A DNA stretch of 20,540 bases from Nitrospirota bacterium (GTDB lineage Bacteria; NPL-UPA2; JAADIA01): contig JAADIA010000027.1 in the NCBI GenBank assembly GCA_013151555.1, forward strand, positions 1 through 20,540. Reading direction: 5' to 3'. A program made the translations under genes and the position numbers. The notes beneath the pieces were generated by a model. The model made no database searches. It was given only the letters and a program-made list of their open reading frames with translations, and had not been told where the DNA came from. This document shows, one piece after another, positions 3,571-19,284 of the stretch. Within the stretch, counting starts at the first letter, position 1. Each line of letters starts with the position of its first letter.

Positions 3571-3690
3571 GGGATAGGTGATATCCGGGGATAGGCTACA
3601 TCCGGGGACAGTCCCGATTCTACGAGCTGCGCTCCGTAAATCGGGACAGTCCCCTCTGAGATGGTGCTCTGTAAATTGGGACAGTTCCCT
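3571..3690. repeat. Tandem palindrome array B, copy of array A
   Basis: GGGACAG boxes start at 3605, 3643 and 3678 (steps 38 and 35). The stretch 3602-3680 is nearly identical to 1521-1600 and in the same orientation, so the two arrays are direct repeats on either side of the PHP-type hydrolase gene. Just before it are two 17-base units (3571-3587 and 3588-3604) that begin GGGATAGG and end ATCCG; the first folds as GGATA/TATCC. Array B has three boxes where A has six. Confidence 0.85.
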
Positions 3691-3709
3691 TGGGTAAGTT
3701 TCCTCTGGC

Positions 3710-10669: not shown

Positions 10670-10707
10670 CGTGAAGAAAGAAAAAATATTTGGAAGAGGA
10701 GATAACT

Positions 10708-11319
10708 TTGATTGCGGTAATTGATTATGGAATGGGGAACCTGCGGAGTGTAAGCAAGGCTCTGGAGAGGGTAGGCGGAGAGGTTAAGATAACCAGCAGC
10801 GTCGAGGATATTGAGAAAGCTGAAGCTATCATCCTTCCCGGGGTGGGAGCTTTTTATCAAGCGATGGAAAATTTGAAGAGCCGGGGGATTGTTGTTCCTC
10901 TCTGTCAGGCGATAGATAGCGGCAAGCTGTTCCTGGGTATTTGTCTGGGGTTGCAGCTATTATTTGAGGAGAGCGAAGAAGGAAATTGTAAAGGGTTGAA
11001 TGTTCTTCCCGGTAAAGTCAAGAAGTTTCAAATTGAAGATTTAAAAGTTCCCCATATGGGATGGAATGGGGTCCGGTTTAAGGATTCTCAACTCTCTTTA
11101 CTTGAAGGAATTCCTGAAGGTTCTTATTTTTATTTTGCCCATTCTTACTATGTGGAGCCAACGGATGAGGAAGTAATTCTGACGATGACGGAGTACGGGA
11201 TACCGTTCACCTCTGCCGTTCGGAAAGATAATATCTTCGGGGTACAGTTCCATCCGGAGAAGAGCGGGGAGAAGGGATTGAGGTTGTTGGAAAATTTTGT
11301 CCGGATAAGTAAAGAATAA
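10708..11319 (+). CDS. hisH: Imidazole glycerol phosphate synthase, glutaminase subunit
   Basis: Releases ammonia from glutamine and channels it to HisF, which makes imidazole glycerol phosphate and AICAR in histidine synthesis. I place the start at TTG 10708: AGAGGAG is six bases upstream and the protein then begins IAVIDYGMGNLRSV as HisH proteins do; the frame is open to TTG 10690. 203 residues. The class I amidotransferase triad is C79 (GICLGLQ), H182 and E184 (FHPEKSG). Its partner hisF lies downstream but is separated by guaA and pyrG, which is unusual. The unusual TTG start may lower its translation. hisH and guaA are 60 bases apart. Confidence 0.93.
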   Translation: MIAVIDYGMGNLRSVSKALERVGGEVKITSSVEDIEKAEAIILPGVGAFYQAMENLKSRGIVVPLCQAIDSGKLFLGICLGLQLLFEESEEGNCKGLNVLPGKVKKFQIEDLKVPHMGWNGVRFKDSQLSLLEGIPEGSYFYFAHSYYVEPTDEEVILTMTEYGIPFTSAVRKDNIFGVQFHPEKSGEKGLRLLENFVRISKE

Positions 11320-11379
11320 GCAATTGGGAAAAGTGGACCGGGAGGCAATTGCCCGGCCCCGGTTAAAATTGAGGGGACA

Positions 11380-12936
11380 ATGAGTAGGAAGACGACCGAG
11401 CGGGAGATGGTAGCCATTCTGGATTTTGGTTCTCAGTACAGCCAGCTGATTGCCCGGCGGGTAAGGGAACTAAAAGTCTACGGGAAACTCTTTCCTTACA
11501 ATATCCGTAGCGCTGAATTGGCTGAGATATCCCCGAAAGCTATTATCCTTTCCGGAGGCCCGGCCAGCTTGACGGCCGAGGAGAGTCCTATCTGCGAAAA
11601 AGGAATCTTCGAGTTAGGAATTCCCGTCTTGGGAATCTGTTACGGAATGCAATTGATGGGGAAGCTCCTGGGAGGGGGAGTAGTTTCTTCTTCCGCCCGG
11701 GAATATGGAAAAGCTAATCTCTGTGTGGATGAGGAAAGCGGCCTTTTCCAGGGACTGGGCAGAGATTTAACTGTCTGGATGAGCCACGGGGATCGTGTAG
11801 CTAAGCTTCCCTCCGGATTCGAAAGAATTGCCCATACTGCGAATTCTTCCATTGCGGCTATGAAGAATAAGGAGAAACAATTTTTCGGAGTGCAGTTCCA
11901 TCCGGAAGTGATTCATACTCCCCGGGGCAAAGAAATTCTTGAAAACTTTCTCTATCGGGTAGCTGAATGTTCTCCTACCTGGACAATGAAGTCTTTTGTG
12001 GAACGGTCCCTTGCAGAGTTGAAAGATAGAGTGGGAGAGGAAAAGGTTATTTGTGCCTTGAGTGGGGGAGTCGATTCTTCCTGTCTGGCTATCCTTCTTC
12101 ATCGGGCAATCGGAAGTAATCTGATAGCGGTCTTTGTGGACAATGGACTCCTTCGCAAAGATGAGGGACGGACGGTAAAGGAAAGGTTCGAAAGTTATTA
12201 CCATTTAAATTTGAAATTTATTGAGGCCGGGGAAAGGTTCCTGGAAGGGTTGGAAGGAGTTGTTGACCCGGAAGCGAAGAGAAAGATTATCGGCAAGGAA
12301 TTTATCCGGGTGTTTGAAGAGGAAGCAAGGAAAGAGAAAGGAATTAAATTCCTGGCTCAAGGGACCCTTTACCCGGATGTTATAGAAAGCCGCTCGGCTT
12401 TTGGTGGTCCCTCGGCTACTATTAAGACCCATCATAATGTCGGGGGATTGCCTGAAGATATGGACCTGGAGTTGATTGAGCCCTTCAAGGATTTGTTCAA
12501 GGATGAGGTAAGGATGGTAGGAAAGGAACTGGGACTTCCCGAGGAGCTTATCCAACGTCATCCTTTTCCGGGACCGGGATTGGCAGTGAGGATTATCGGT
12601 GAAATCACCGAAGAGCGGCTCTTTCTTTTAAGAGAGGCCGATAAGATTATGATTGAGGAGATTCGCGAGGCCGGTCTTTACGGGGAAATCTGGCAGGCCT
12701 TCGCTGTTCTTCTTCCCGTAAAGTCTGTGGGGGTGATGGGAGACGAAAGGACCTATGAGAATGTCGTGGCCCTGCGAGCAGTAACCAGTACCGATGGAAT
12801 GACCGCCGACTGGGCGGAGATACCTCATCCCGTATTGGGAAGAATCTCCAATCGCATTATTAATGAAGTCAAAGGAATAAACCGCGTAGTCTACGATATA
12901 AGTTCCAAACCCCCCAGCACCATAGAATGGGAGTAA
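11380..12936 (+). CDS. guaA: GMP synthase (glutamine-hydrolysing)
   Basis: Converts XMP to GMP using ATP and glutamine, the last step of guanine nucleotide synthesis. 518 residues, full length. The glutaminase domain (about 10-200) has C87 ([10 protein letters not shown]), H174 and E176 (FHPEV). The ATP-pyrophosphatase domain has the PP-loop LSGGVDSS (227-234). The C-terminal dimerisation domain ends with the family signature KPPSTIEWE. Start at ATG 11380 with GAGGGG upstream; ATG 11410 is a possible shorter start, closer to the usual N-terminus ([14 protein letters not shown]). It probably shares the hisH transcript. No purine riboswitch was recognised in the 60-base gap. Confidence 0.96.
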
Positions 12937-13155
12937 TTTTAATAGGGACCATTTAATTTCGTTTCTTTTTTGGTCTGCCTCTTGGCAAAGCAAGTAATAT
13001 TCTTCCGAATTGTTTCTCTAACTTTTCTATAAATACCCTTGAGCCTAACGGGCGCCCGGTAAGCGTATGTTTTCTTATATTACCCAAATCTTTTTCCCCA
13101 TTTCTTTCTATGTGTTTTGTCCCTATTTTTTGTTTTATAAAGAAGTATAAAGGAG
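12937..13155. other. Intergenic leader between guaA and pyrG
   Basis: A non-coding, T-rich interval. It has a small palindrome CGGGCGCCCG near 13050, but no convincing terminator or known riboswitch. The pyrG promoter follows at 13156. Confidence 0.4.
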
Positions 13156-13183
13156 TTGACAGTAGCGGGGGATATGGTAGAAT
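13156..13183 (+). promoter_or_regulatory. Sigma70-type promoter of pyrG
   Basis: TTGACA (13156-13161), 16 bases, TAGAAT (13178-13183) with TGG before it. AGTTGACAG and TGGTAGAATCGT match the hisH promoter with identical spacing, so the two are probably related by descent or controlled alike. Confidence 0.75.
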
Positions 13184-13206
13184 CGTAGGCGGAGATATTG
13201 TCTTGA

Positions 13207-14829
<1,623 letters not shown>

Positions 14830-14910
14830 AAGTTATAAGTTGTACCCTTCCGGGCACGGGCAAGTTATGAATTAAAACTTTTAACCTTCAACCTTCAACC
14901 TTAAACTATT
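14830..14910. repeat. Heptamer repeat between pyrG and hisF (AACCTTC type)
   Basis: Five perfect 7-base steps from 14876 to 14910 with units AACTTTT, AACCTTC, AACCTTA and AACTATT. The opposite strand motif occurs ahead of it (AAGTTAT at 14830 and 14862, AAGTTGT at 14837), so this is again a rough foldback. The repeat ends only seven bases before the hisF start codon and leaves no room for a ribosome site. Confidence 0.8.
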
Positions 14911-14917
14911 TCTAAAA

Positions 14918-15760
14918 ATGTTAGCTAAAAGAATTATTCCTTGTTTAGATGTCAAAGATGGCCGGGTGGTCAAAGGTATCCACTTTCTTAACCTGAGGGA
15001 TGCTGGGGATCCAGTGGAGATCGGAGCCTTTTATAGCCGGGAAGGAGCTGATGAATTGGTCTTCCTGGATATAACCGCTACTATTGAAAGCCGTCCTACG
15101 ATACTCCATGTAGTTGAAAAGACAGCAGAGGAAGTTTTTATTCCTCTCACTGTCGGGGGAGGGATAAAAGGAATAGAGGATATAAAACAGTTGCTTTCCT
15201 CGGGAGCGGATAAAGTATCCATAAATACGGCAGCTATTAAGAACCCGGATTTGATTAAGGAAGCCTCGGAAAGATTCGGCAGCCAGTGTATTGTAGTGGC
15301 GATAGATGCGAGAAGAGTTGAAAGTTTAAAGTCTAAAGTTAAAAGAAAAAACGAAAAAAATTTGTCTTCTTATGCATCTAACTTTCAACCTTCAACTTTT
15401 GACTTTCAACCCTCTTGGGAGGTTTACATTAATTCCGGCCGGACGCCGACGGGGTTGGATGCATTGGAATGGGCCGGAGAAGTGGAGTCTCTCGGGGCGG
15501 GGGAGATTCTTCTTACCAGTATGGATGCCGATGGAACTAAGGATGGCTATGACCTGGAATTGACTAAAAGAATATCGGATTCGGCAACTATTCCCGTGAT
15601 TGCTTCCGGGGGGGCAGGTAATCTTCAACATCTCTTCGAAGCGCTTACGGAAGGGAAGGCCGATGCCGTATTGGCAGCTTCCATATTCCATTATGGAGAG
15701 CATAGTATAAAAGAAACAAAAGATTTTCTGCGAAAACAGGGCATCATAGTGAGATCGTGA
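14918..15760 (+). CDS. hisF: Imidazole glycerol phosphate synthase, cyclase subunit, with in-frame repeat insertion
   Basis: Forms imidazole glycerol phosphate and AICAR from PRFAR using ammonia from HisH. 280 residues against about 253 in well-studied HisF proteins. The (beta/alpha)8 barrel starts [18 protein letters not shown] with catalytic D11; the second catalytic aspartate is D130 (AIDARR), exactly where expected. Directly after it, residues 134-166 replace the usual short loop of about ten residues before [13 protein letters not shown]; this segment is encoded by a heptamer repeat (15316-15414). The barrel after it is intact, with [13 protein letters not shown] and VIASGGAG, so the protein may well be active. 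No Shine-Dalgarno sequence is visible before ATG 14918. The stop codon lies in the next heptamer repeat. Confidence 0.94.
15316..15414. repeat. Heptamer foldback repeat inside hisF
   Basis: Left arm: four perfect 7-base steps 15316-15343 (AGTTGAA, AGTTTAA, AGTCTAA, AGTTAAA). Right arm: five perfect steps 15380-15414 with the complementary type (AACTTTC, AACCTTC, GACTTTC). Between them is an A-rich then mixed centre of 36 bases. The element is translated in frame as a charged and then F/Q/P/S-rich loop. It has the same plan as the intergenic elements, and its left arm shares units with the repeat after purF. Confidence 0.88.
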
Positions 15761-15807
15761 GTTACGAGTTACAAGTTACAAGTTACAAATTATAAATTAT
15801 AAAGTCT
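15759..15807. repeat. Heptamer repeat after hisF (RAGTTAC type)
   Basis: Seven consecutive 7-base steps: GAGTTAC twice, AAGTTAC twice, AAATTAT twice, then AAAGTCT. The array begins inside the hisF stop codon and ends just before the purF ribosome site. No reverse arm is visible here. Confidence 0.85.
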
Positions 15808-15824
15808 GCTGAGAGGAATTGAGT

Positions 15825-17228
15825 ATGTTGAATGACAAACCAAGAGAAGAATGCGGTATCTTTGGCGTCTTTGGGCATAAAGATGCGGCTGAGCTTACTT
15901 ATCTGGGCCTCTATGCGCTTCAACACCGGGGTCAGGAAAGTGCGGGGATTGTTGTCTCGGATGGAAAAAAAGTGAGAATCCAGAAGGGGATGGGATTAGT
16001 TACCGAAGTCTTTAAACAGAAAGGTTTGGAAGGGTATCCGTCCCATCTGGCTATTGGACATGTTCGTTACTCTACCATGGGTTCTTCCTCTCTTAAGAAT
16101 GCTCAACCGTTTTTAGTAGAATATTCCAACGGTTCTTTAGCTATTGCTCATAATGGCAACTTGGTTAATGCCCAAGAGCTGCGCCGTAAACTGGAATCCT
16201 CCGGTTCTATATTCCAATCCACTATGGATAGTGAAATAGTTATCCATCTCTTAGCCAAATCAAGGAAAAAGAATCTGCAAGACAGGGTTTTTGAAGCTTT
16301 ATCTCAAGTTAAAGGAGCCTACTCGCTCCTTTTCCTTACCGAGAAAGAATTAATTGCTGCTAGAGACCCTCAGGGGGTTCGGCCCTTGTGTTTGGGCCAG
16401 CTTGATGGGACTTATGTAATCGCTTCCGAGAGCTGTGCGTTAGATCTCACCCGGGCTAAGTTCTTGAGGGAGATTGAGCCGGGAGAAATTGTCTTCATAG
16501 ATGAGAAAGGGTTGCGTTCCTTCAAGCCTTTTCCGAAGGAGAGACATTCTTTTTGTATCTTTGAGTTTATCTATTTTGCTCGTCCGGACAGTTATCTCTT
16601 TGGAGGCAATGTGCATCTTATCAGGAGGGCTCAAGGTAGAGAATTGGCCCGGGAATATTCTCAAGAGGCAGACTTGGTGATGCCTATTCCCGATTCGGGA
16701 AATTCCGCCGCTCTTGGTTTTTCCAAGGAGTCGGGGATCCCTTTCGAAATGGGAGTGATTCGCAACCACTATGTAGGAAGAACCTTTATTCAACCTTCAC
16801 CTTACATCAGGGATTTAGGAGTCAGGGTCAAGCTCAATCCGGTCAAGGAGGTCTTGAAAGGAAAACGTGTAGTTATCGTTGAAGATTCTATTGTCAGAGG
16901 AACCACTTCCCGGACAAGGATAAAGACGTTGCGGGAAGCGGGGGCAAAAGAGATCCACATGAGGGTGAGCTGTCCGCCTTTGAAATATCCCTGCTTTTAC
17001 GGAATTGATTTTCCTACCAAAGAAGAATTAATCGCTTCCAATCGAAGCGTAGAGGAAATTGCTGACTTTGTTGGTCTGGATAGCCTGGGATATCTTAGTT
17101 TAGAGGGACTATTTAAGGCTATGCCTCTTCCCCGGGAAGAATTCTGTACGGCCTGTTTCAACGGTGTTTATCCTATCTCTATTCCCAAAGGGATGGGGAA
17201 ACATACCCTGGAGAGGATTATCAGTTGA
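15825..17228 (+). CDS. purF: Amidophosphoribosyltransferase (glutamine PRPP amidotransferase)
   Basis: First committed step of purine synthesis: PRPP plus glutamine to phosphoribosylamine. 467 residues from ATG 15825, chosen over TTG 15819 because GAGAGGA stands seven bases before it. The N-terminal nucleophile cysteine C10 (EECGIFGV) follows a nine-residue leader that must be clipped. The PRPP loop is VVIVEDSIVRGTTSR near residues 348-362. Cysteines C244, C390, C441 and C444 (FCTAC) match the iron-sulfur cluster ligands of the Bacillus subtilis type, so the enzyme is probably the oxygen-sensitive Fe-S form. HisF next door produces AICAR, a purine intermediate. The stop codon lies within a heptamer repeat. 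Confidence 0.96.
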   Translation: MLNDKPREECGIFGVFGHKDAAELTYLGLYALQHRGQESAGIVVSDGKKVRIQKGMGLVTEVFKQKGLEGYPSHLAIGHVRYSTMGSSSLKNAQPFLVEYSNGSLAIAHNGNLVNAQELRRKLESSGSIFQSTMDSEIVIHLLAKSRKKNLQDRVFEALSQVKGAYSLLFLTEKELIAARDPQGVRPLCLGQLDGTYVIASESCALDLTRAKFLREIEPGEIVFIDEKGLRSFKPFPKERHSFCIFEFIYFARPDSYLFGGNVHLIRRAQGRELAREYSQEADLVMPIPDSGNSAALGFSKESGIPFEMGVIRNHYVGRTFIQPSPYIRDLGVRVKLNPVKEVLKGKRVVIVEDSIVRGTTSRTRIKTLREAGAKEIHMRVSCPPLKYPCFYGIDFPTKEELIASNRSVEEIADFVGLDSLGYLSLEGLFKAMPLPREEFCTACFNGVYPISIPKGMGKHTLERIIS

Positions 17229-17250
17229 AAGTTAAAGGTTCAAAGTTAAA
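17223..17250. repeat. Heptamer repeat after purF (AGTTAAA type)
   Basis: Four perfect 7-base steps: AGTTGAA, AGTTAAA, GGTTCAA, AGTTAAA. The first unit contains the purF stop codon. Two of the units are identical to units in the left arm of the element inside hisF. Confidence 0.8.
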
Positions 17251-17268
17251 AATTTTTAACGATTTTTG

Positions 17269-17835
17269 ATGAGGGAAAAGTTGCGCAGTGAATATCGTGT
17301 CGGAGCTACAAAGCTGGTCCTCGTCCAAGGAGATATAAGAGATCAGGATACTGAGGCTATCGTCAATGCCGCAAATTCTGGTTTACTTGGGGGCGGAGGT
17401 GTTGACGGAGCTATTCATCGGGCCGGAGGTCCTCGAATACTTGCAGAATGTAAAGTCATCCGTGCCAAACAAGGAAGATGTCCTACCGGTGAAGCGGTCA
17501 TTACCAGTGGTGGAAACCTAACGGCTCGCTATGTTATTCACACTGTCGGTCCTGTCTGGTCCGGGGGGAAGAAGAACGAGGATGTTCTTCTTTGCCGGGC
17601 CTACCGGAACAGTCTTGCCCTGGCAAAGAAGCATAATATTCAGTCTATCTCCTTTCCCTCGATTAGCACCGGCGCTTATCGTTTTCCCCTTAAGAGAGCT
17701 GTTCCCCTGGTCCTTTCTACCGTTCGGGATTTTTTGGAAGAGCATCATTTCCAGGAAGTCCGCTTCGTGCTTTTTGGCGAGAAGGCTTTTCTGAAATATA
17801 AAGAGGTTTGGGAAGAGATAGGAACTGCAGACTAA
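17269..17835 (+). CDS. Macro domain protein, ADP-ribose/O-acetyl-ADP-ribose hydrolase type
   Basis: About 189 residues, a single macro domain of the MacroD/YmdB type: QGDI near the N-terminus, [23 protein letters not shown] with the conserved Asn/Asp of the active site, [16 protein letters not shown] and [12 protein letters not shown]. Such enzymes bind ADP-ribose and remove it, or the acetyl group of O-acetyl-ADP-ribose. Its start is unsure: ATG 17269 has no ribosome site, while TTG 17281 has GAGGG five bases before it and gives a protein four residues shorter. The stop codon TAA (17833-17835) lies inside the next heptamer repeat. No toxin-like partner (DarT) is seen, so a DNA ADP-ribosylation antitoxin role has no support here. 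Confidence 0.88.
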
Positions 17836-17948
17836 AGAGACTACAGACTATAGATAAATAGACTATAGACTAAAAGATTAAAATATTTTTGGTTTTTATC
17901 TGAAGCCTGAGGCCTAAAGTCTGAGGTCTAAAGTTTGAGGTCTGCAAT
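17828..17948. repeat. Heptamer foldback repeat supplying the waaA ribosome site
   Basis: Left arm 17828-17879: units CAGACTA, TAGACTA (three clean 7-base steps plus 8- and 9-base steps). Right arm 17900-17948: seven perfect steps with CTGAAGC, CTGAGGC, CTAAAGT, CTGAGGT, TTGAGGT and CTGCAAT, the reverse complement type of the left arm (CAGAC/GTCTG). The left arm contains the stop of the macro-domain gene. In the right arm the unit TTGAGGT provides GAGG six bases before the waaA ATG, and the last unit contains the A and T of that start codon. Confidence 0.85.
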
Positions 17949-19242
17949 GTATCTTTTCTATAACTTATTGTTACTATTTTCCTTTTTAGTAGGTCTTCCT
18001 TCTTTCTTTTTAGGTAAAATGCTTTTTACTGGTAAGTACCGGAAAAGTTTCCGGCAGAAGTTTGGATTTATTCCCTCTTCTCTTCAAGAAAAGATGGTAG
18101 GCTCTCCCTGTATCTGGATAAACGCCGTTTCGGTAGGGGAAGTCATCGCTGTTAGTTCTCTCGTCAAAGCTCTCCACAAGATGTATCCTCAAGCTTGTCT
18201 CATCTTCTCCACGGGCACGGAGACCGGTCAGGAGATGGCCCGAAAGATGGTGAAGGAAGCCACTGCCTATATCTATTATCCTTTAGACCTGCCCTGGATA
18301 GTACGCAGAACGTTAGATATAGTTAATCCAGACCTCTTTATCAATACCGAGACGGAACTCTGGCCGAATTTCCTCCGCCTGGCTAAGAAGAGAGGCGTCA
18401 AAATAATATTGGTTAACGGACGGATTTCGGTAAGGTCCTTTAGCCGTTATCGAAAGACTGCTTTTTTCTGGAGGAAGGTCCTGGATAACCTGGATGTGAT
18501 GAGCATGATCTCTGAGATTGATGCGGAAAGAATCCGGGCTATAGGTGCCAAACCGGAACGAGTGTTTGTGAATGGTAATTCCAAATATGATGCTTTGGCA
18601 GGTCGGACAGAACCCCGTTTTGAAGAGGAGCTGCGAAAGATACTGAAGATAAACGAAGAAGAAAAGGTCTTTATTGCTGCCAGTACTCATCGGGGAGAAG
18701 AGGAGATAGTTCTGCAAGCTTATAAGAGATTCCTGGAAAAGTTCCCCGGGCTACTCTTAATTATTATTCCCCGGCATATTGAGCGAGTAGGGGAGGTTGA
18801 AGAAATTGTGAAGAAGGAAGGAGTCGGTCCTTGTATCCGTCGGAGCCGGATTGAAGGAAGCAAACAATCAAGGACGGAGTCAATAATTATCCTGGATAGT
18901 ATAGGAGAATTGTTTAAGGTCTATAGCCTGGGAACGCTCGTCTTCTGTGGAGGAAGCTTCGTTCCCCGGGGAGGACAGAACATCATGGAACCGGCTGCCT
19001 GGGGGAAAGTTGTCTTCTATGGTCCGTCTATGGAAGACTTTCTTGATGCTAAAGAGCTTCTGGAAAGAGCCGGAGCAGGGATACCCGTAGAGAGCGTAGA
19101 GACATTAATAGAAAAAGGATTAGCTTTGCTTTCCCAGCCCCGGGAACTCAAAAAGCGGGGAGAAGCCGGCCGGAAAGTGGTAATGTCCTCCGGGGGAGCC
19201 GGGCAACGGAATGCCGAATTAGTAAGAGGATTGTTAAAATAG
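17947..19242 (+). CDS. waaA: 3-deoxy-D-manno-octulosonic acid (KDO) transferase
   Basis: Adds KDO to lipid IVA during lipopolysaccharide synthesis, at the inner face of the inner membrane. 431 residues from ATG 17947, with GAGG (17937-17940) six bases before it; TTG 17935 is an alternative. The N-terminal membrane anchor is residues about 3-22. The first domain has INAVSVGEVIA with the catalytic glutamate, STGTETG and TETELWPNFL; the second domain has the nucleotide-sugar region FCGGSFVPRGGQNIMEPAAWG. Length and both GT-B domains fit family GT30. It is good evidence for an outer membrane. Its last codons and stop lie in the left arm of the palindrome at 19235-19284. Confidence 0.94.
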   Translation: MYLFYNLLLLFSFLVGLPSFFLGKMLFTGKYRKSFRQKFGFIPSSLQEKMVGSPCIWINAVSVGEVIAVSSLVKALHKMYPQACLIFSTGTETGQEMARKMVKEATAYIYYPLDLPWIVRRTLDIVNPDLFINTETELWPNFLRLAKKRGVKIILVNGRISVRSFSRYRKTAFFWRKVLDNLDVMSMISEIDAERIRAIGAKPERVFVNGNSKYDALAGRTEPRFEEELRKILKINEEEKVFIAASTHRGEEEIVLQAYKRFLEKFPGLLLIIIPRHIERVGEVEEIVKKEGVGPCIRRSRIEGSKQSRTESIIILDSIGELFKVYSLGTLVFCGGSFVPRGGQNIMEPAAWGKVVFYGPSMEDFLDAKELLERAGAGIPVESVETLIEKGLALLSQPRELKKRGEAGRKVVMSSGGAGQRNAELVRGLLK

Positions 19243-19284
19243 GGACAGACACTATTTAATTAAATAGTGTCTGTCCCTATTTTA
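19235..19284. terminator. Perfect 50-bp palindrome, two-way terminator between convergent genes
   Basis: Two arms of 25 bases pair without mismatch around the centre between 19259 and 19260; the arm contains GGGACAGACACTATTTAA. The stop codon TAG of waaA (19240-19242) is in the left arm and the stop codon TAA of the nitroreductase (19284-19282) is in the right arm. Both outer ends are A/T runs (AAAA, TTTT), so it can end transcripts from both sides. The GGGACAG box is shared with the 35-bp palindrome arrays, so it may be a REP-type element recruited here. Confidence 0.85.

Follow-up and report, generated by a model that had tools for sequence, protein, structure and literature searches.

Rickettsia palindromic elements, families of about 150 bp with a conserved encoded peptide (Ogata 2000, 2002, as described in PMC10969869), are hairpin-forming repeats that insert in frame into genes for unrelated proteins, which tolerate the peptide segments so added. 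Repeats of 7-nt units are represented by the cyanobacterial STRR and by the TAACTGA arrays of Beggiatoaceae and cyanobacteria, which occur at many sites, mostly intergenic, with some in ORFs (PMC4679880). TAACTGA arrays repeat a single sequence in direct orientation and, read forward, contain stops in every frame; the genome described has one indirect repeat, and 25 BOGUAY proteins contain or overlap TAACTGA-type arrays, mainly at the protein ends (PMC4679880). Here we analyze a foldback of diverged heptamers inside hisF, found in a 20,540-nt stretch of DNA from a Nitrospirota bacterium (the window; its genome, a fragmented assembly, is called G000).

The product of hisF scores 387 bits against the curated profile model TIGR00735 (cutoff 295) and matches T. 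maritima HisF and HisF-LUCA in the PDB. It is the only HisF detected in G000, where the remaining matches are HisA-like or weak. hisF is clustered with hisH, guaA, pyrG and purF at window positions 10690-17228; four of these genes encode glutamine amidotransferases.

The original prediction was that a heptamer foldback is inserted in frame in hisF at 15316-15414, right behind the catalytic residue D130, and adds about 24-27 residues to an otherwise intact barrel. Consistent with this, window HisF aligns with T. maritima HisF and HisF-LUCA over residues 1-134/135 and again from 166/168 onward. The 31-32 window residues in between face 2-3 in those proteins, an excess of ~29; compared with the 11-residue loop of the same-phylum genome G008, the excess is 24. 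Up to 135 the numbering follows that of T. maritima, which places catalytic D130 at residue 130 of the window protein; the insert starts five residues past it. In an AlphaFold model, which resembles the folds of HisF-LUCA and T. maritima HisF most closely, the barrel has high confidence and the insert is predicted to be disordered (pLDDT 50-67 over the block, <50 at residues 137-142). In the known HisF-HisH complex, HisH sits on the opposite face of the barrel, and the insert should therefore make no contact with it.

Table 1. Features of the hisF insert and its sibling repeats in the window.
Feature	Position	Strand	Remarks
hisF, imidazole glycerol phosphate synthase cyclase subunit	14918..15760	+	280 aa; insert carrier
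Inserted peptide segment, residues 134-166	15317..15415	+	between strand beta5 (125-134) and strand 166-171
Left arm, purine-rich AAAGTTG-type heptamer array, AGTTGAAAGTTTAAAGTCTAAAGTTAAAA	15312..15346	+	~4 diverged copies, encodes 12 residues
A/T-rich spacer (hairpin loop)	15347..15378	+	encodes 10 residues
Right arm, same heptamer type reversed (AACCTTC), AACTTTCAACCTTCAACTTTTGACTTTCAACC	15379..15413	+	~4 copies, 12 residues, used frame open
Intergenic sibling foldback upstream of hisF, AAAGTTATAAGTT ... AACCTTCAACCTTCAACC	14832..14906	.	
Intergenic sibling heptamer array downstream of hisF (AGTTACA / TTATAAA)	15760..15803	.	
Intergenic sibling array, hisF left-arm heptamer type	17223..17254	.	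86% identity to left arm over 29 nt; family D3
Intergenic sibling arrays, AGACTAT / TCTGAAG type	17824..17944	.	

The inserted DNA consists of two diverged AAAGTTG-type arrays in opposite orientation (Table 1). Tandem Repeats Finder and a repeat search placed arrays at 15316-15345 (consensus AGTTTAA) and 15380-15410 (consensus AACTTTC), and an inverted pair, 32 nt long, 78% complementary and with a 36-nt spacer, joins 15314-15345 to 15382-15413. The predicted location was thus right but its exact limits were not, as the arrays together cover 15312-15413, a foldback of ~102 nt. Across 15311-15414 the used frame is the sole stop-free frame of six; around period-7 arrays of G000, any given frame is open over 96 nt in 14% of cases. 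The RNA fold predicted for the segment has an energy of -23.7 kcal/mol (z = -2.3), a modest signal. Elsewhere in G000 the insert finds partial matches only, and sibling repeats lie between genes in the window. The window also holds five tandem copies of a 35-nt unit, GAGCTGGTGCTCTGTAAATTGGGACAGTCCCCTCT, at 1543-1728, with the unit recurring 2 kb away at 3601-3703, and a perfect, terminator-like 50-bp palindrome with overlapping arms TAAAATAGGGACAGACACTATTTAATTAA between two convergent genes at 19235-19284.

To place the foldback in its genome, we took a census of 776 kb of the 1.81 Mb of G000 (43%), sampled as stretches. This gave 101 segments of period 7; lags 5, 6, 8 and 10 gave 2, 10, 29 and 1, respectively. 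A Markov simulation of 267 kb of G000 produced no period-7 segment, compared with 42 observed. ORFs make up 90% of the DNA and yet 70 of the 101 segments lie between them, so that period-7 segments are strongly depleted in genes. The heptamers are of many canonical types, with degenerate copies and inverted pairs. Among neighbouring arrays no more than 100 nt apart, 22 pairs point inward (purine-rich, then pyrimidine-rich) and none outward, and arms are more alike within elements than between them (0 of 1000 permutations as high). As the inward pairs have matching arms, the foldback is a real unit. One 96-nt sibling element has ~10 near-full-length copies at 77-91% identity, which supports dispersal as a unit. 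The repeats of G000 form a dispersed hairpin class with many heptamer types. That such an element can move or grow, as originally proposed, is supported for the class by these copies, and the hisF copy itself may have done the same. A longer, MITE-like dispersed repeat was also seen (L161:9927, L166:2662, L228:9828); its arms are AAATCCG/ACTCGAA heptamers, and its copies have part of their inner sequence in common.

Other genes of G000 with in-frame arrays are miaB, uvrA, leuS, argD, pyrK, apgM and lnt; as arrays were sought inside open frames, their openness is partly a search condition. Most of those in the first six appear as gaps against solved relatives. In MiaB (L195:3286-4944, G000 C9), ~66 residues encoded by ACAGAAG/ACTATAG heptamers separate the aligned halves, between residues 262 and 329, the largest in-frame array that we observed. 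The uvrA array accounts for ~30 residues and that of argD for six, and PyrK (L158:6349-7188, G000 C82) has two separate inserts, one per orientation, at codons 63 and 195. The encoded peptides vary from gene to gene. Read directly, pyrimidine-rich AACCTTC and purine-rich ACAGAAG arrays are stop-free in all three frames, which is probably why they are common in genes. Away from its heptamer insert, uvrA (L169:2990-3130, G000 C72) has a frameshift that splits it in a stretch rich in G and A near residue 616; this could be real or an assembly error. Heptamer arrays also occur in HisH, the partner of HisF, in two other genomes, G353 included (L043:1831-1874, L184:9666-9703), at two different sites near the conserved PHMGWNQ motif.

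Alignment with close relatives, which the original prediction had proposed as a check, shows that the HisF loop is filled differently or is short in them. In the same order, G003 and G004 carry different heptamers there (CGAATAT/AAATTGC and CATCTGA/T); in the same phylum, the loop holds REP-like palindromes in G005 and G007 and is short in G006 and G008. Filling of the loop must therefore change quickly, and loop sequences cannot be aligned even between same-order genomes. Nor is the loop sequence conserved in other HisFs; such conservation was the refuting condition set with the original prediction, hence the predicted insertion of a repeat stands. The palindrome of G005 is a repeat dispersed in the phylum, with 31 matches in G006, and HisA of G005 and G007 carries the same palindrome in frame (L131, L134; G005 C24, G007 C4). 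In HisA it encodes IPRLDRGIH or a similar peptide, and a membrane protein in L127 also carries it. As the CATCTGA-type arrays of G004 had no further match anywhere in that assembly, the argument from dispersed copies rests on G000 and G005-G007. G004 has two HisF-like genes (C96 and C89), one with a repeat loop and the other aligning as if short-looped.

We then looked across 386 genomes picked across families, 29 of which had a HisF aligning well to a long-loop query. Among the loops examined, heptamer arrays fill that of HisF in L039 (Omnitrophota), L043 and L088 (Methylomirabilota) and L055 (Anaerolineaceae), and in G268 (a one-contig assembly), G233, G093, G232 and G184, besides G000, G003 and G004; several of those in other genomes are foldbacks. 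In 99 HisF genes, 14 period-7 segments fall in the loop (4.0 kb) and none in the remaining 73 kb, while lags 8 and 9 yield one segment each. A HisF tree inferred with the loop excluded needs at least seven changes of heptamer state, with 12 labelled carriers that include the weak case L143. The tree is blind to gain versus loss, but the heptamer sequences differ among carriers, which argues for separate gains; L088 and L146 (G232) have one inherited insert in common. The loops of L143 (G195), L044 and L147 show a weaker period-7 signal and are kept outside the firm cases, and those of L138 (9-mer) and L154 (10-mer) look like repeats of other periods. Distant HisFs also have repeat-free long loops at this site (L012-L015, L044, L048, L054), which makes it an old length-variable loop. 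Window HisF combines an old site of variable length with a repeat-derived filling.

How do these repeats compare with the described systems? Like Rickettsia palindromic elements, the G000 elements form hairpins, with the 32-nt arms and 22:0 inward pairing described above, and lie in frame in conserved genes, hisF and the seven others. However, heptamer foldbacks are ~70-120 nt long, are of many types, share no common peptide and are mostly intergenic. At ~102 nt, the hisF foldback falls short of 150 bp, and no family-wide sequence or peptide was found among its partial matches in G000. The predicted likeness to the Rickettsia elements thus survives as an analogy but not as membership, given the diverged 7-mer arms and the lack of a conserved element sequence or peptide: the hisF insert would work like those elements, yet is no member of them. 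Heptamer tandem arrays such as TAACTGA are the nearest repeat class. G000 arrays share with them and with STRR an exact period of 7 and many, mainly intergenic, sites, but they are degenerate and of many types, frequently form inverted pairs and occur within core enzymes; a single near-perfect heptamer in direct repeats was not found in G000. The heptamer inserts also resemble Borg tandem repeats, which lie in ORFs and make predicted disordered segments, except that Borg units are perfect and divisible by three (PMC9879509) and the heptamers are imperfect units of 7 nt. REP and MITE elements are likewise short dispersed palindromes, and in G005 and G007 the HisF loop is filled by REP-like ones, but no conserved termini were seen in the heptamer foldbacks. 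A RAYT as mobilizer showed no clear correlation with carriers in searches for Y1_Tnp (PF01797) genes, which are few: there are two in G000, none was found in G003 (only 69% complete), other heptamer-loop carriers searched have 1-10, and 5 of 14 control genomes also have them. Intrastrand triplex (PIT) elements were set aside, as in E. coli their motif is of a three-run G/C kind and occurs between genes only (PMC4666352). In the open-access literature searched, we found no description of heptamer foldbacks in core enzymes or of the HisF loop as a repeated target.

Could the segment instead be an old functional loop of the protein, whose DNA is repetitive and of low complexity by chance? Distant HisFs do have repeat-free long loops in the same place, and the site is length-variable. 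Yet the loop cannot be aligned within the order, the pattern lies in the DNA and not in the peptide (7 is no multiple of 3) and siblings lie between genes, so that this reading is mostly refuted and, in our view, very improbable. An assembly or amplification artefact, such as a chimeric inverted read, is barely credible: foldback chimeras are known artefacts and the G000 assembly is fragmented, but both hisF arms are in frame, elements recur across G000, and the HisF loops of other genomes, one-contig G268 among them, hold heptamer arrays that include several foldbacks.

Two further explanations concern how the element arose and why it is kept. A function of the hairpin as RNA or DNA (regulator site, pausing, mRNA stability) could retain the element while the protein tolerates it, which would fit the consistent inward orientation, the RNA fold z of -2.3 and the regulatory roles proposed for TAACTGA heptamers (PMC4679880). 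As sequence and type vary from gene to gene, elements are strongly depleted in genes and the fold energy is modest, we think this unlikely. It is possible, if rather doubtful, that the element grew in place without a mobile element, from a chance heptamer expanded by slippage and a second arm made by hairpin-templated copying. The arms of each element do share a heptamer type, types do vary among loci and genomes, and in most genomes no repeat category is more abundant than heptamers, with polymerase slippage as the proposed origin (Mrazek, as cited in PMC4679880). On the other hand, the same heptamer type recurs in nearby intergenic DNA (family D3), and similar copies of sibling elements, loop included, are dispersed as well. 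Growth in place competes solely with the part of our preferred reading that has the repeat dispersed as a unit.

That preferred reading, to which we give a probability of roughly 0.8, is that a hairpin repeat, either selfish or neutral and spread as a unit or lengthened by slippage, inserted into hisF and has been kept as a translated and harmless segment where the beta5-alpha5 loop has its tip. This reading agrees with the original prediction that a repeat lies in frame in HisF, in a loop that tolerates it, and that the barrel is intact. The insert would be one copy of a genome-wide class with the order 5'-purine-rich heptamer array, A/T-rich loop, inverted array-3'. Copies would be made by unit dispersal and/or replication slippage in 7-nt steps, with both arms of each element keeping one heptamer type, as slippage with hairpin copying would explain. 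Most survivors would be copies between genes, with selection presumably removing insertions that disrupt the reading frame or the protein fold. The minority in genes would survive only where the insert length keeps the frame, the used frame is stop-free and the peptide falls in a surface loop, which in HisF would be the beta5-alpha5 loop tip on the catalytic face. Target-site duplication or a clean empty site was not readable at hisF, where the nearest loops are all diverged or filled with other repeats. The peptide is probably translated in the cell, disordered and tolerated by an enzyme that would retain its activity; a gained function is not evident.

We see even odds for a broader proposal, that the HisF beta5-alpha5 loop is a recurrent, cross-phylum landing site for unrelated mobile hairpin repeats and that heptamer foldbacks are a distinct, widespread selfish class that builds disordered segments in core enzymes of many uncultured bacteria. 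The finding extends selfish DNA of the Rickettsia type inside proteins to uncultured lineages and to a class of 7-nt repeats that would be expected to break frames. Many independent fillings of its loop by differing repeats make HisF a naturally replicated experiment on the origin of new protein segments from non-coding repeats and on the changes that a TIM barrel can bear next to its active site. Collectively, ordinary enzymes appear to be gaining new segments from junk-like repeats.
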